NCBI GenBank assembly: GCA_025353725.1
Contig: JANXOF010000090.1
Span: forward strand, 1-43,239
Source of the DNA: Polyangiaceae bacterium
Lineage (GTDB): Bacteria > Myxococcota_A > Polyangia > Polyangiales > Polyangiaceae
Direction of reading: 5' to 3'
DNA: 43,239 nt
Shown here: positions 11,348 to 18,345 of the stretch, in pieces
Position numbering within the stretch: the stretch's first letter is position 1
Layout of the letters: every line of letters begins with the position of its first letter
Program-made: the position numbers and the translations under genes
The notes under the pieces: model-generated
Seen by the model: the letters and a program-made list of their open reading frames with translations, nothing else
What the model was told of the DNA's origin: nothing
Databases searched by the model: none

Positions 11348-12676
11348 ATGACCTTTGCCTCGCTCTCCTTGTCCGCACCGCTGCTTCGTGCCGTCGAGGC
11401 GCAAGGGTACGCGTGTCCGACGCCGATTCAAGTTGCGGCGATCCCCGCCATTCTTCAGGGGCGCGATGTTTGGGCGTCGGCGAAAACGGGATCTGGCAAG
11501 ACCGCCGCGTTCGTGCTGCCGATGCTTCAGATCCTCGGGGAGGGGCGACGCGGGGTCGGGCAGCGCGTGCGTGCGCTCATCGTCGTACCGACGCGCGAGC
11601 TCGCGATGCAGATTGGCGAAGTCGTACGCCGATTCAGTCGGGCGATGCCCGCGCCGCTCAAAACGTGTGTGGTCGTAGGCGGCGTTTCGAAAAACCCCCA
11701 GCGGATGGATCTTCGCGGAGGAGCGGACCTCGTCATCGCCACGCCGGGCCGCCTTCTTGACCTCGCGGCAGACAACGCACTTCGCCTCGACGACCTCGAG
11801 CTTCTTGTTCTCGACGAGGCCGACCAACTCCTTTCGCTTGGTTTCAGCGACGAGCTCGCGCGTCTCCTCGCCATGCTCCCGCGTAGGCAAAACCTACTGT
11901 TTTCTGCAACGTTTCCCGAGGACGTCTGCGCGCTCGCGTCGCGGATCCTCGACGCCCCCGTGCGCATCGAGGCAGACCCGGCCGAGACGCTCCGAAGTGG
12001 CGTCATCACGCAGCGCGTGATCGAGGTCGACACGGCCAAACGAACGCGGCTACTTAGGCACCTTCTCGAGGTTCATGGGTGGTCTCAAGCCCTCGTTTTT
12101 GTGTCGAGTCGTCACGCCGCTGAACACGTCGCTGACAAGGTCAAGCGCGCAGGAATTGAAGCGGCCGCTCTCCACGGCGACCTCAGTCAAGGCGCACGCA
12201 CGAAGGCCCTAGCTGACTTCAAGAGCAAGCAAACGCGCTTGCTCATCGCAACCGACGTAGCCGCGCGGGGAATCGACGTTCCGCAGCTTCCCGCCGTCAT
12301 CAACTACGACCTGCCGCGGTCGTCGGTGGACTACGTTCACCGCGTTGGACGCACGGGCCGCGCCGGCGAATCCGGCACTGCGATTAGCTTTGTCACGGCG
12401 GATTCCGCGGCTCACTTTCGCCTCATTGAAAAGCGACATCACTTGTCCCTCGAACGCGAACGACTCCCGGGGTTCGAGCCGAGCGAGGTGAGCGCCGAGA
12501 GCGCTTCGCCATCGCCGCTAGACGCTGTCGAGAACGCTCCGCTAGCGCCGCTGGACGTTGTCGAGAACGCTCCGCCAGCGCCGCTGGACGTAGCGGGCGG
12601 CGTCAAAGGTCGACGAAAAAGCAAGAAGGACAAACTGCGCGAAGCCGCGGCGCGAGCCGCAGCGGTGAAGTCATGA
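11348..12676 (+). CDS. DEAD-box RNA helicase (RhlE-like)
   Basis: A 442-residue helicase with all family motifs in order: Q motif GYACPTPIQ, motif I AKTGSGKT, Ia PTRELAMQ, Ib TPGR, II DEAD, III SAT, IV ALVFVSSR, V ATDVAARGIDV and VI HRVGRTGRAG. The C-terminal tail holds a short imperfect repeat (APLDVVENAPPAPLDVAGG and a similar copy) and ends in a basic, probably RNA-binding stretch (KGRRKSKKDKLREAAARAAA). The ATG at 11348 is chosen because the core begins right after it. The stop overlaps the next start by 4 nt (ATGA), so the DUF455 gene is translationally coupled. Confidence 0.95.
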   Translation: MTFASLSLSAPLLRAVEAQGYACPTPIQVAAIPAILQGRDVWASAKTGSGKTAAFVLPMLQILGEGRRGVGQRVRALIVVPTRELAMQIGEVVRRFSRAMPAPLKTCVVVGGVSKNPQRMDLRGGADLVIATPGRLLDLAADNALRLDDLELLVLDEADQLLSLGFSDELARLLAMLPRRQNLLFSATFPEDVCALASRILDAPVRIEADPAETLRSGVITQRVIEVDTAKRTRLLRHLLEVHGWSQALVFVSSRHAAEHVADKVKRAGIEAAALHGDLSQGARTKALADFKSKQTRLLIATDVAARGIDVPQLPAVINYDLPRSSVDYVHRVGRTGRAGESGTAISFVTADSAAHFRLIEKRHHLSLERERLPGFEPSEVSAESASPSPLDAVENAPLAPLDVVENAPPAPLDVAGGVKGRRKSKKDKLREAAARAAAVKS

Positions 12677-13494
12677 CACTCGCGCACGAAGCAGAGCCTG
12701 CGCCGACTACCGGTACGATCGAGCGATGGGCGTGGGACTACATCTTGTCGTCAACGCTCGAGGCGAAGCTGACTCCGCCTCTAGTGCCCACCACATGGGA
12801 GGTCCTTCCGCCGGCTCGGCGCCTCATGGCGCCCGGTCGGCCGCCCGAGCTTCGCCTGGTCGCGAAGGCCGCAAAAACGCGTGGCCTTCAATCGGTGCAC
12901 GGCCGCGCGCGGGCGCTGCACACGTTTTTTCATCACGAACTCCAAGCGGCTGAACTTATGGCTTGGGCCGTGCTCGCGTTTCCTTCGTCGCCCGTCGACT
13001 TTCGCGCGGGTCTCGTCCGGATTGCCCTCGATGAGGTGCGGCACATGCGCATGTACGCGACTGAAATCGAACGGTTAGGACATGCGATTGGCGAGTTCTC
13101 TGTTCGTGATTGGTTTTGGGAGCGTATTCCGAGCTGCGTTTCTCCGTCCTCGTTTGTCGCGACTATGGGCTTAGGCTTCGAGAGTGCCAATCTCGAGCAC
13201 ACGGCTTCGTATTCCGCACGATTTCGTGACGCGGGAGATGTTGAGGGCGCGCGCGTTCAGGAGCTCATCGGACTCGAAGAGATCGCGCATGTTCGCTTTG
13301 GCGTGCGCTGGTTTCAGTATTTCAATGGTCATTTAGCCTTCGAGAACTGGAAGGCCGCGCTGCCGGCTCCGCTCTCTCCGTTGCTGATGCGTGGTCGTCC
13401 GTTCCGTCGTGAAGCGCGCGAGCGCGCAGGATTTCCCAAGTCTTTCCTTGACGAGCTTGAGGCATGGCAACCGATCGATTTGCCTGGGTCCTGA
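12673..13494 (+). CDS. DUF455 ferritin-like protein
   Basis: A 273-residue protein of the DUF455 family. A four-helix ferritin-like core is indicated by HHELQAAELMAWAVLAF, LDEVRHMRMYATEIERLG, the helix around LGFESANLEHT, and GLEEIAHVRFGVRWFQ. These supply the Glu and Glu-x-x-(R/A)-His residues expected for a di-metal (probably di-iron) site. No export signal. The reaction is not established for this family; oxygen activation or hydroxylation is possible. It overlaps the helicase by 4 nt and the ATP-grasp gene by 31 nt, so all three genes probably form one transcript. Confidence 0.85.
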   Translation: MTLAHEAEPAPTTGTIERWAWDYILSSTLEAKLTPPLVPTTWEVLPPARRLMAPGRPPELRLVAKAAKTRGLQSVHGRARALHTFFHHELQAAELMAWAVLAFPSSPVDFRAGLVRIALDEVRHMRMYATEIERLGHAIGEFSVRDWFWERIPSCVSPSSFVATMGLGFESANLEHTASYSARFRDAGDVEGARVQELIGLEEIAHVRFGVRWFQYFNGHLAFENWKAALPAPLSPLLMRGRPFRREARERAGFPKSFLDELEAWQPIDLPGS

Positions 13495-14357
13495 ATCTTG
13501 ACGCCGATCTCGAGCTCGCGATGGGCCCCGGATACACGCCAAGGCGAAGTGTGCGTGAAGCGATGCGCACGTTCGCGCCTGTCTTGGCGGGAACGCTCCT
13601 CGCGCCAGGAGACATCGTCATCGACGAGTCGTCGCAGCCGGGGTGTGCGCTAGGGTTTGTCGGTCGCGCGTTCTGTCCAACGCCGCATGCACGTGCGTTG
13701 CTCGCAAAAGCCTGCGCGACCGCTACGCCGCATCCGCCTGTTGAGGTGCTCCGGCGAGTCAACTCCCGTGCATTCTGCGCGGAGTTCTTTCCCCACTTGC
13801 CTGAAGCGTCGTTCGTCCTCGGTCTGGAGCGTGTAAGAGTCAAGCTTGCGACGGCGCCGCCGCCCTTTTCGCTCGGGGGCGCGTGGCGCGTCAAGAGCGC
13901 GTTCGGAATGTCGGGCAGGGGACAGCGCGTGGTCTCGCCTCGCACGATAGGCGACGCCGACTTAGCTTTCATACGGTCTCTTCTCGAACAGGGCGGTGTT
14001 CAGATTGAGCCGAATGTCGCCATCGTACAAGAATACGGGCTTCACGGAATGCTCTCGCGAGCGGGAGCCCCGTTGGAGCTCGGTGCTGTCGTGGAACAGC
14101 GTTGCGACGCGCGCGGTGCGTGGCTCTCGACAGCGCGCGCGTCAGCCCCGAACGACGTCGTAAGTCGATTAACCGAGCAAGCGAAGCAGGTAGCCTTCGC
14201 GTTGTTCCGAGAGGGCTACTTCGGCCCGTTCGGCGTCGACGCCTACACGTATCGCGATGAGCTTGCCGACATTCACTTTCACCCCTCAAGTGAAGTCAAC
14301 GCACGTTACTCCATGGGATTCGGCATCGGCTTTGCTCGCGCGCCCGACGCGGCGTAG
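13464..14357 (+). CDS. ATP-grasp domain protein
   Basis: A 297-residue protein with the ATP-grasp layout: a lysine strand WRVKSAFGMSGRGQRVV (phosphate-loop-like Gly-rich turn), a strand pair around VAIVQEYGL, then FGPFGVDAYTYRD and the metal-binding HPSSEVNARYSMGFGIGF, equivalent to the usual ExNxR. Family members ligate a carboxylate to an amine or thiol via an acyl-phosphate. The N-terminal ~150 residues should hold the preATP-grasp domain. The substrate is unknown. It starts inside the DUF455 gene in another frame (31-nt overlap) and its 3' end overlaps the convergent CDP-alcohol phosphotransferase by 52 nt. Confidence 0.75.
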   Translation: MATDRFAWVLNLDADLELAMGPGYTPRRSVREAMRTFAPVLAGTLLAPGDIVIDESSQPGCALGFVGRAFCPTPHARALLAKACATATPHPPVEVLRRVNSRAFCAEFFPHLPEASFVLGLERVRVKLATAPPPFSLGGAWRVKSAFGMSGRGQRVVSPRTIGDADLAFIRSLLEQGGVQIEPNVAIVQEYGLHGMLSRAGAPLELGAVVEQRCDARGAWLSTARASAPNDVVSRLTEQAKQVAFALFREGYFGPFGVDAYTYRDELADIHFHPSSEVNARYSMGFGIGFARAPDAA

Positions 14358-15391
14358 GTCGTATGACTATCAAGTCTTGCTACGGCTCGATGCGTGTCGC
14401 GCGCGTTTCTGGCGGCCGAAGTACCGAAGACGAAGAGCGCCGCGAGCGACGCGGTGACGTCGACCACGGGGCCAACGTCACCGCCCGCTAGCCGCCACGC
14501 GATGAGGCACACCAGGGCGGCGCAAAAAACGACCAAGCGCAGCTCAATCGTCGGAGGTACCGACGCCGTACGTACTGCAAGGCTACGGACGCCGAAAAAT
14601 ATGTTTGCGAAAGTACCAATCACGACCGCGCAAAGCGGTGAGATGACGTCAAGAAGCGCAGCGACCAACGTGCTACTTTGGATAAAGACGAGCGGCGCAA
14701 TGCGCAGAATGCGCTTGACCCCGCGAGCCTGAAGTACGCGCGCAACGTTTTGAATGATCGTCACTATTCCTCCCGCGCACACGAAACTCATGATCGCAAG
14801 ACGCGCGCTAAACGGGCCCACGCGCACGCGCTCCCAGACATCGACGCCTGCCCACGCACTGACAAGCAGCACGGCAGAGAGAAAGCAAAGCGATTCGATT
14901 TGTCCGAGTGTTCCGAGGTGGAGAACGCCTGTTTCTGCCTGCTCCCAGTACGTTGCTGCGCAGCCGGCGGGTACGACAAGCGCAATGGCTATCCACCAAG
15001 CCTGCGGCGCGCCGATCGCGATCGCGGAAACATATGCGATGTACGTGGTGTTCATTATGTCGAGTCCGTGGTCGAGCCACTCGCCCGTCGCTGAGGCACG
15101 GTTCGTGCGCCGAGCGTGCGCGCCGTCGGCGTTGTCGCACCAGTTATAGACGTGTAGGCAAAAGGCTGCCGCGACAAAACCCGCGCGAACCTTGCTTGGG
15201 GACGAGTCGTGGAAGAAAATGAAAAGGAGTACGACACCAAGCAGGTTGATGACGTGTCCGACGTGCGTAATGGCGTTCGGGTGAACCCTCTCGGGAATGA
15301 ACGGAAGAAGCGGCGTGACGAAGAAGTTTTTGTAGATCGGAAGGAGAAAGGAGCGATCTTTGACCGTGTAGACAAGGCCCTCGTCTGCCAT
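14306..15391 (-). CDS. CDP-alcohol phosphotransferase (EPT1/CPT1-like)
   Basis: A 361-residue integral membrane enzyme with about eight to ten hydrophobic segments. Residues 86-111 carry the complete signature D-x2-D-G-x2-A-R-x8-G-x3-D-x3-D (Asp86, Asp89, Gly90, Ala93, Arg94, Gly103, Asp107, Asp111), which binds metal and transfers a phosphoalcohol from CDP-alcohol to a lipid acceptor. The N-terminal FVTPLLPFIPERVHPNAIT stretch resembles eukaryotic-type choline/ethanolamine phosphotransferases more than PgsA. It may make phosphatidylethanolamine, phosphatidylinositol or similar lipids; the substrate cannot be told here. The 3' end overlaps the ATP-grasp gene on the other strand. Confidence 0.9.
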   Translation of the reverse strand: MADEGLVYTVKDRSFLLPIYKNFFVTPLLPFIPERVHPNAITHVGHVINLLGVVLLFIFFHDSSPSKVRAGFVAAAFCLHVYNWCDNADGAHARRTNRASATGEWLDHGLDIMNTTYIAYVSAIAIGAPQAWWIAIALVVPAGCAATYWEQAETGVLHLGTLGQIESLCFLSAVLLVSAWAGVDVWERVRVGPFSARLAIMSFVCAGGIVTIIQNVARVLQARGVKRILRIAPLVFIQSSTLVAALLDVISPLCAVVIGTFANIFFGVRSLAVRTASVPPTIELRLVVFCAALVCLIAWRLAGGDVGPVVDVTASLAALFVFGTSAARNARDTHRAVARLDSHTTYAASGARAKPMPNPME

Positions 15392-17083: not shown

Positions 17084-17725
17084 TCACTTCTTCGAAGCGA
17101 CTGCTTTGTTGCGCGCGGCCCCGTACACGTCGGCATCGACGTCGGTGCCTGTCGACCAAGCTTCGAGCGCAGGAACGACGAGGGAACTCCACGCGGGCCC
17201 GAGGCGCAACGTCAAGAAGTCTCGGTAGAGTGCTTCGAGGATTTCTTCAATTTCCTGCGTCACGCTCATCCGTTCGTAGAAGTCCTCGTGAGCCTCGTCG
17301 TCCGCGAACGCGGCTGCGGTCTTCTTCTTCGCCGGGCGACGCGCTGGCTCGGTCACGCCCTCCGTGGGGCTCGCGTCCTCCGGTTCCTTTCGGGGTAACT
17401 TGAGGCCCGCAATGGCTGTGGCTTCGGCCTTGAGCGTGAACGTCGCGTCGTGGCCTCCCCATGACAAGTGCAGCGACGCGAGATCGGGCGTTTTGCCGCG
17501 GAGCAGGCTCTCTTTCGCCTCGCGGTGTTGACCCGGCATGGTGCCCTTGATCGTTGTCGTCTCTTGACCGGCGGAGAGCACGAGGCGACCCTCGATCCAA
17601 AACCCGAAAGCGCCGTGTTTTTTCGTCGTGAGCGTCGCGTCGAACACCTCGCTCTCGAACCAGAGCCAGAGCAGCCACTCGCGCCCAACGAACCGACGAA
17701 GCTGAATGCACTCGAAGCGATCCAT
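17084..17725 (-). CDS. RdgC C-terminal-domain-like protein
   Basis: A 213-residue soluble protein. Residues ~10-120 (FVGREWLLWLWFESEVFDAT, GFWIEGRLVLSAGQETTTIK, ASLHLSWGGHDATFTLKAEA) resemble the C-terminal portion found fused to RdgC in several deltaproteobacterial homologues. A charged, disordered linker (EPARRPAKKKTAAAFADDEA) precedes a helical tail. The start ATG at 17725 shares bases with the stop of the upstream gene (TAATG), so the two are coupled; the longer frame extending to 17929 is overlap with that gene. It is likely to act with the N-terminal half on DNA ends or RecA filaments. Confidence 0.65.
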   Translation of the reverse strand: MDRFECIQLRRFVGREWLLWLWFESEVFDATLTTKKHGAFGFWIEGRLVLSAGQETTTIKGTMPGQHREAKESLLRGKTPDLASLHLSWGGHDATFTLKAEATAIAGLKLPRKEPEDASPTEGVTEPARRPAKKKTAAAFADDEAHEDFYERMSVTQEIEEILEALYRDFLTLRLGPAWSSLVVPALEAWSTGTDVDADVYGAARNKAVASKK

Positions 17726-18345
17726 TACGACTCCTTCGCCAAAACGGTGACATCGATTTGCTGCCACGCGCTCTCGTGAGCCTTCGAGAGACCGATGCGC
17801 TCCGCGAGCGTGTAAGGCGATTGTTGGATAAGCCTGAGCCCGAATGTCTTGTGAAAGAGTTCGGTCATGCCGATTCCAGCTTTCTCGGAGTGGGTAAAGA
17901 AACGCACGACGCCTTCGTTCAACGACCACGTGAAGTCCACGACGCGCGTGACTGGGGAGAGCTCTTTACGCAGCTTGCGTGCGACCGACTCCTTTAGGTC
18001 GGCTTTCTCTTTGCGACCGAGTTTTTCTCGACCCTTTTTCGCGAGGTACGCAGCCTCGGCCTCGCGCACGCGGGCCTTGAGCATAGGCCCTGGGATTTGC
18101 CAGCGGTCCGTTCGGAGGCCGAGGACGATGAACTCATTGTAAAAGACATTGTCGTACGTCAAGTCAAGCTCGAACGGCTCGCCCAGTTTGCTCCACCCCG
18201 ATCGCTCTAAGTCCTCCTCGTCGGCCACGAGTGGCTTAATGACGCGGAGGCGGATGGCCCGCATGTACTTCTCTCGGAAGTCCTCCGGGACCTCGCCGTC
18301 GACAAAGAAGCGTGAGTAGGTAAGCGAACCTCGAAGAGCTGGCAC
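17725..18345 (-). CDS. RdgC-like protein, N-terminal part
   Basis: A 206-residue protein starting RGSLTYSRFFVDGEVP after a GTG at 18345; AGAGG six to seven nt upstream is a good ribosome site, and the longer frame to 18486 adds only an Arg-rich, non-conserved stretch. The helical segment LKARVREAEAAYLAKKGREK, then KEKADLKESVARKLRKELSP, and a strand pair (VVDFTWSLNEGVVRFFTHSE) match the corresponding part of RdgC, the ring-shaped double-stranded DNA binding protein that restrains RecA in E. coli (303 residues there). Here the protein stops early and the rest is a separate gene downstream. Assignment is by family resemblance. Confidence 0.7.
   Translation of the reverse strand: MPALRGSLTYSRFFVDGEVPEDFREKYMRAIRLRVIKPLVADEEDLERSGWSKLGEPFELDLTYDNVFYNEFIVLGLRTDRWQIPGPMLKARVREAEAAYLAKKGREKLGRKEKADLKESVARKLRKELSPVTRVVDFTWSLNEGVVRFFTHSEKAGIGMTELFHKTFGLRLIQQSPYTLAERIGLSKAHESAWQQIDVTVLAKES

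Follow-up and report, generated by a model that had tools for sequence, protein, structure and literature searches.

Organization of the locus

The window analyzed here is the whole 43,239-nucleotide (nt) stretch of DNA from a Polyangiaceae bacterium (assembly GCA_025353725.1, contig JANXOF010000090.1), and the subject of this analysis is a pair of overlapping genes within it encoding a DUF455 protein and an ATP-grasp protein. The DUF455 gene (12673-13494, + strand) encodes a ferritin-like protein of family PF04305, a probable diiron oxygenase as judged by Pfam, its ligand residues, and its AlphaFold2 (AF2) fold. The following gene (13464-14357, + strand) encodes a homologue of ATP-grasp amino-acid or peptide ligases, as indicated by a search of the phylum, alignment, a profile match, and the fold of a fused relative. 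The pair is preceded by the gene for an RhlE-like DEAD-box RNA helicase (11348-12676, + strand) and followed by a convergent gene for a CDP-alcohol phosphotransferase (14306-15391, - strand; PF01066, expectation value (E) 9.6e-12), both of which lie outside the conserved module. This gene set, together with three gene overlaps, had been described in an earlier note made from the sequence alone and was confirmed by a check of open reading frames (ORFs) and Pfam matches: 4 nt between helicase and DUF455 (a plain ATGA at 12673-12676), 31 nt between DUF455 and ATP-grasp in different frames (13464-13494), and 52 nt between ATP-grasp and the convergent phosphotransferase (14306-14357).

The 31-nt overlap on the + strand is nested, with the ATP-grasp gene in the -1 frame. 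The ATP-grasp ATG sits in Ala-Trp codons close to the C-terminal end of DUF455, whose stop codon falls within Val-Leu-Asn codons of the ATP-grasp gene, an arrangement also present in several near relatives. Across 34 split pairs, including two that are non-adjacent, the frame offset of ATP-grasp relative to DUF455 was the identical -1 in 27 (binomial p 4.7e-8 for the common frame, with related pairs counted as independent). Based on this common frame, a programmed -1 frameshift that would join the two window products in one protein was considered. The final 90 nt of the window DUF455 gene held no slippery heptamer, and only three were scattered among the 34 pairs. Since no frameshift signal was found in the window, a nested, translationally coupled start is preferred over a -1 frameshift, and translational coupling of the pair is probably the simplest reading. 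The earlier note had regarded a shared transcript as seen from the overlaps. The overlaps are real and suggest a common transcript, but promoter (1 site versus 0.8 expected) and terminator (6 versus 5.6 expected) scans of the window did not rise above shuffled sequences.

Pairing of DUF455 and ATP-grasp in the Myxococcota

The DUF455/ATP-grasp pair is a real, widespread, and uncharacterized enzyme unit, to which the helicase is only a neighbor. In a sample of 282 genomes from the phylum, DUF455 was matched in 166 genomes (148 above the cut-off) and the window ATP-grasp in 91. Rare adjacency elsewhere had been named in the earlier note as a possible refutation of a link between the two genes; when the 94 listed ATP-grasp matches were compared with the 150 listed DUF455 matches, adjacency proved frequent, with 74 of the 94 located beside DUF455 or in one frame with it. 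By position, 49 followed DUF455 on the same strand at no more than 1.5 kb and 23 shared one open frame with it, while the other 22 comprised two within 6 kb of DUF455, two on the contig of DUF455 but distant from it, and 18 without a listed DUF455 on their contig. Furthermore, DUF455 was present in 86 of the 91 genomes with ATP-grasp versus 80 of the 191 others (Fisher p 1.6e-19, uncorrected for relatedness). A total of 73 Myxococcota loci were retrieved, 23 of them with a fused frame and picked by clustering, and all 23 fused frames carried ATP-grasp when searched with an iterated profile. The coupling of DUF455 with ATP-grasp is thus strongly supported by adjacency, one-polypeptide fusions, co-occurrence, and the invariant ligands described below.

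Ten genomes of one family (f21) retain both genes at separate positions, on different contigs in eight and at distances of 69 and 126 kb in two. One genome of this family (G135) encodes ATP-grasp without DUF455. The separated DUF455 and ATP-grasp genes of f21 (loci L117-L122 and L128-L134) each have their own lineage-limited neighbors.

Single-chain fusions in other phyla

A one-genome-per-species collection scanned with fused proteins yielded at least 493 relatives. Only the 80 best were retained, and this selection, together with the use of a fused query, biases the set to fusions. All 80 were single open frames whose alignment began at the query start and reached at least residue 611 of 711, and the strict ATP-grasp ExNxR motif was found in 71. 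According to record titles, the 80 are mostly of Verrucomicrobia type, with others from Latescibacterota, Gemmatimonadetes, SAR324, Oligoflexales, Myxococcota, and further groups. Around one Verrucomicrobia genome, matches were found in 23 of 188 genomes of the class (E <= 1e-30) and in 71 of 196 genomes of the order (E <= 1e-60). In a DUF455 tree of 146 rows, the 103 fused rows fell on one side of a single branch with a Shimodaira-Hasegawa-like approximate likelihood ratio test (SH-aLRT) value of 98, so that a single fusion or a single fission event can suffice for these rows. This was a quick tree with an uncertain root and an outgroup on a long branch, and two of its rows (L092 and L174) represent the same place.

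Metagenome-assembled genomes with Klebsiella pneumoniae or Akkermansia muciniphila in their titles (L166, L172, L198, L202, and L203) also carried fused proteins. These proteins cluster with those of uncultured Verrucomicrobia, and some of the record titles look wrong.

The DUF455 protein

The window DUF455 protein belongs to PF04305 with E 1.4e-43 and 149.7 bits, compared to a curated cut-off of 34.3. Ferritin-like diiron oxidases have the ligand pattern E, ExxH, E, ExxH, and the putative diiron ligands of the window protein (E89, E121/H124, E170, and E203/H206) fit this pattern. All six were invariant in each of 47 aligned rows (47 of 66 Myxococcota DUF455 domains, including the window and L123) and in each of 35 rows comprising the window and 34 of the 80 fused loci. 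Conservation of the metal-binding Glu and His residues had been set beforehand as a point on which the earlier claim could fall, and these residues proved invariant in the rows aligned.

The AF2 model of the window DUF455 (predicted local distance difference test (pLDDT) score 89.9) is a ferritin-like four-helix bundle, with long helices at residues 75-102, 108-134, 158-186, and 190-218. Foldseek returned ferritin-like matches with a best E of only 5.4e-3. With VIA-align, Dps-like proteins (including PA4880), bacterioferritins, and aldehyde deformylating oxygenases were tied at Z 14-15; the deformylating oxygenases gave the longest alignments, mostly 182-187 residues (Z ~14), compared to ~141 for bacterioferritins and Dps-like proteins. 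Taken with the ligand residues, the modeled fold suggests that DUF455 probably binds two irons and activates O2. Structure prediction had been proposed in the earlier note as a way to see the metal site and the ligase pocket; the DUF455 bundle and the ATP-grasp fold of a fused relative were both predicted, and the putative metal site is read from the residues and the fold together.

Three of the 47 DUF455 rows also touched the Haem_oxygenas_2 family (best E 0.0017). The strongest Pfam DUF455 match in the phylum sample (G107, locus L123; E 1.2e-97) had no ATP-grasp match and occupied a very long branch on the tree. A database paper, in the portion available, assigns DUF455 to PDB entry 4BGF with a Cys-His-Asp triad (PMC12828279), an assignment at odds with the ferritin-like PF04305 proteins described here.

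The ATP-grasp protein

The window ATP-grasp protein had no significant Pfam match; only DUF3182 was reported, at E 0.044 and below its cut-off, and no ATP-grasp family appeared at E <= 0.1. Of 37 relatives, four matched PF02222 at E <= 0.01 (best 0.001). The ATP-grasp identity of the window gene is assigned because of the alignment, profiles, and fold of its relatives. In the alignment of 37 ATP-grasp domains, out of 63 available, the window protein retains K144, D259, E277, N279, and R281, and the corresponding residues were Lys in 34 rows, Asp in 37, Glu in 34 (with Asp in the other three), Asn in 36, and Arg in 37. Sequence profile matches were obtained to 8YND (E 8.4e-9), BesA (6.6e-6), 7R8P (4e-5), and PGM1 (6.4e-5).

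A fused Latescibacterota protein of 707 residues (L142) was modeled by AF2 from 39 sequences with pLDDT 93.7 and a predicted template modeling score of 0.92. PGM1-type peptide ligases took VIA-align ranks 1-7 for L142 (Z 24.7-28.1) and are the closest solved ATP-grasp fold: its ATP-grasp half matched PGM1 at Z 28.1, 8YND at 26.4, SAOUHSC_02373 at 25.7, and BesA at 25.6, followed by PurK at 20.8. Foldseek with L142 agreed on the amino-acid and peptide ligase matches. The ATP-grasp fold is thus found in the L142 model, and the nucleotide-binding Lys and Mg-binding Glu/Asn in the window protein itself. The PDB names of the nearest structures refer to amino-acid or peptide ligation. In the accessible text of their sources, SAOUHSC_02373 is listed as an L-aspartate-L-methionine ligase (PMC12235713) and PGM1 joins a small peptide to a nonproteinogenic amino acid (PMC8939145). 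By modeled fold and residues, the ATP-grasp half most likely acts as an amino-acid or peptide ligase.

When the window ATP-grasp by itself was used to scan genomes, no confirmed relative was obtained, and a plasmid search with it gave one weak match in 72,556 records. A stand-alone relative of the ATP-grasp, annotated as a hypothetical protein on a Parabacteroides distasonis plasmid (L215:4476-5684), has 26% identity over ~350 residues with the fused query (E 6e-18), and DUF455 was absent among its eight annotated neighbors.

Genes adjoining the module

ORFs of at least ~80-90 residues were clustered beside the 73 Myxococcota loci and the window, and beside the 80 wider loci, of which 23 have less than 2.5 kb of flank on one side. 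Around the Myxococcota loci, the two module genes were the only ones to recur in most loci. Two larger groups in this set (15 and 7 loci) were, by eye, protein kinases and short-chain dehydrogenases, with positions that varied among loci. The window proteins encoded around the pair (helicase, phosphotransferase, amidase, VWA, AraC, and the protein at 17084-17929) had no match at E <= 1e-8 in the 73 Myxococcota loci, two of which are from the genus of the window. With neither the helicase nor the phosphotransferase conserved, the four genes do not form one unit. PADLOC reported no defense match for DUF455, ATP-grasp, a fused relative, or the phosphotransferase.

Only the helicase, among the neighbors in the window, found matches in the 80 wider loci. 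In seven of these a helicase lies on the same strand as the fused gene, adjoining it or one small gene away, upstream in five and downstream in two. Among 60 further Verrucomicrobia loci (18 repeated from the 80 and 42 new), one had a DEAD-box helicase at the fused gene. The helicase was rejected as a conserved functional partner, as it had no match in the 73 Myxococcota loci or in 59 of these 60; a DEAD-box helicase is a recurrent neighbor in Verrucomicrobia-type loci, not a conserved part of the module. The helicase-adjoining loci of this type (L157, L159, L170, L177, L182, L183, L196, and L244) come from two orders, and in six of them (L157, L159, L170, L177, L196, and L244) a conserved ~120-residue protein lies beside the helicase. 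This protein was provisionally labeled L7Ae; the copy scanned had no Pfam match.

In five loci, all from the family or order of the window, a pyridoxal phosphate-dependent amino-acid decarboxylase (PF00282, E 3.6e-46 to 7e-64) adjoins the module on the same strand. It lies upstream of DUF455 in L064 (8756-10168), L065 (8759-10201), and L069 (6686-7966), directly upstream of ATP-grasp in L096 (3571-5253), where the DUF455 of that genome is on another contig, and downstream of the module in L068 (5633-7210). The first four are close orthologues with 57-73% identity, and the L068 protein is a more distant member at ~30% identity. Decarboxylase matches were confined to these five loci among 222 sequences searched, including the window. 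NCBIfam matches of the decarboxylase (diaminobutyrate, aspartate, tyrosine decarboxylase, and others) were all far under cut-off. The amine it forms would be a candidate substrate for the ligase.

In Latescibacterota and Gemmatimonadota (L135-L148), a ~424-residue gene accompanies the fused gene in 11 loci, mostly on the opposite strand, and a downstream ~326-residue gene does so in eight. These companions probably reflect lineage synteny.

Proposed function and alternative explanations

The best reading of these findings, to which a probability slightly above 0.5 is given, is that a diiron oxygenase and an amino-acid ligase work on one substrate. Each gene of the pair would supply one half of a bifunctional enzyme found elsewhere as a single ~700-residue polypeptide. 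The DUF455 half would hold two irons in its four-helix ferritin-like bundle, activate O2, and oxidize the substrate by hydroxylation, desaturation, or cleavage. The ATP-grasp half would activate a carboxylate as an acyl phosphate and then join it to an amine, the resulting bond most likely being an amide that links an amino acid to a second amino acid, to an amine, or to a small peptide. A single small amino-acid-derived molecule would be processed by the two halves in turn. In the clade of the window the two would be made as separate chains from the nested, probably translationally coupled gene pair. The earlier note suggested modification of a small molecule or peptide, which is consistent with the structural neighbors and with the decarboxylase beside the module in five near relatives. 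A more specific proposal is that a single-chain "oxygenase-ligase" makes an unseen small oxidized dipeptide- or amide-like metabolite in several phyla, mostly outside any cluster, with the enzyme split and nested in the lineage of the window and the decarboxylase joining in some near relatives; this is speculative and, in its full form, rather unlikely.

Several observations weigh against a diiron oxygenase and ligase acting on one substrate. Five of the 91 genomes with ATP-grasp show no DUF455, 80 of the 166 DUF455 genomes have no match to the window ATP-grasp, and 76 of the 150 listed DUF455 matches lack a paired ATP-grasp match, with 37 of the 76 lying in open frames of at least 600 residues. 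In six of the 71 Verrucomicrobia-order genomes the match is limited to the C-terminal portion of the fused query and lies in a frame of 471-532 residues; split forms seem to occur there too, and fusion in that order seems not to be universal. Among the ORFs compared, no third gene was conserved throughout, the groups recovered being only module genes and lineage-limited sets. The decarboxylase is found in only five of the 73 Myxococcota loci and was not matched in the genome of the window itself, in a search that had no positive control. The window ATP-grasp is shorter than the fused form by alignment, and the fold evidence comes from L142. For DUF455, the predicted diiron site rests on residues and a modeled fold, and the fold matches are weak and mixed, so that storage or peroxidase roles would be compatible with the fold.

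The last point raises the alternative, considered improbable, that DUF455 serves in iron storage, as a peroxidase, or as a structural protein, and that its pairing with the ligase is regulatory and not catalytic. The Dps-like PA4880 and bacterioferritins are indeed among its best structural matches, but DUF455 is fused in one chain to the ligase in many relatives, and aldehyde deformylating oxygenases cover more of the protein than bacterioferritins do. A second possibility, of similarly low probability, is a protein- or RNA-directed modification, in which ATP-grasp adds an amino acid to a protein or nucleic acid that the diiron half also hydroxylates, with RNA helicases as occasional partners. 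RimK, for example, adds an amino acid to a protein. This explanation is favored by the DEAD-box helicases encoded on the module strand, which occur in the window and in both wider samples (7 of the 80 fused loci and 1 of the 60 further ones); by the helicase label changing six times among eight helicase rows of the DUF455 tree, where short-flank loci were scored negative; and by a weak DUF455 profile match (E 0.55) to 8fhc, a named tRNA hydroxylase whose entry title gives aldehyde deformylating activity. The helicase is unmatched, however, in most of the loci compared, and the helicases themselves differ, that of the window being RhlE-like and the one scanned from a Verrucomicrobia-type locus being CshA/DbpA-like with a DbpA RNA-binding domain. 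The closest ATP-grasp structures, moreover, work on amino acids or small peptides.

Marginally less probable still is a graspetide-like system of the ribosomally synthesized and post-translationally modified peptide (RiPP) type, in which the pair would modify a small ribosomal peptide encoded nearby. According to the available part of a survey, graspetides are ribosomal peptides modified by ATP-grasp ligases (PMC8939145). In the comparison of ORFs of at least ~80-90 residues, shorter ones lying outside it, nothing conserved was found beside the module except the lineage-limited groups, and the terms "ferritin", "diiron", and "DUF455" are absent from the main text of that survey.

Relation to known systems

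The earlier note knew of no described pathway with this gene set. No description of DUF455 linked to an ATP-grasp ligase was found in the literature searched, which left most subscription journals outside. An oxidase-ligase pair as a kind is already known, and it is the DUF455 family, its fusion, and its spread that appear to be undescribed in that literature. In the accessible text of PMC13185094, the mangotoxin mbo cluster encodes the heme-oxygenase-like diiron oxidase MboA with the ATP-grasp amino-acid ligases MboC and MboD, and 1447 heme-oxygenase-like diiron oxidases near ATP-grasp genes and at least 25 unique clusters are reported. Peptide-synthesis clusters that combine heme-oxygenase-like diiron oxygenases with peptide ligases had been predicted in an older survey (PMC2922099). 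The module resembles the mbo cluster in encoding a probable diiron oxidase together with a probable ATP-grasp amino-acid ligase. It differs in that the oxidase partner is a ferritin-like PF04305 protein and does not fall in the heme-oxygenase-like family, is often part of one polypeptide with the ligase, and mostly occurs without a cluster or any further gene conserved throughout. If the proposed function is true, the diiron-plus-ATP-grasp logic outlined for the heme-oxygenase-like family in the available part of PMC13185094 would extend to a ferritin-like family.

The fusion allows a testable functional prediction for DUF455, a domain of unknown function present in 166 of the 282 sampled genomes. 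The ATP-grasp family is named above cut-off neither by Pfam or NCBIfam for the window protein nor in the fused relatives scanned (three by Pfam and one by NCBIfam). As both activities would reside in one ~700-residue protein, a single purification and a single knock-out metabolome could give access to the function.

Similarity to PGM1-type ligases (3WVQ/3WVR, 8YND, BesA 8YI6, and SAOUHSC_02373 7R8P/7R8Q) extends over 340-379 residues of the fused relative, and the Lys, Asp, Glu, Asn, and Arg of the ATP site are retained in the window ATP-grasp. The BesA pathway also contains a diiron enzyme. Identity to these ligases is 12-18%, and unlike them the ATP-grasp described here is paired or fused with DUF455, most copies lying outside a recognizable biosynthetic cluster. 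DUF455, in turn, shares its predicted four-helix fold and E, ExxH, E, ExxH pattern with cyanobacterial aldehyde deformylating oxygenase and other ferritin-like diiron oxidases, and differs from them in its low identity (12-18%) and in its first ~70 residues, which the alignment leaves uncovered.

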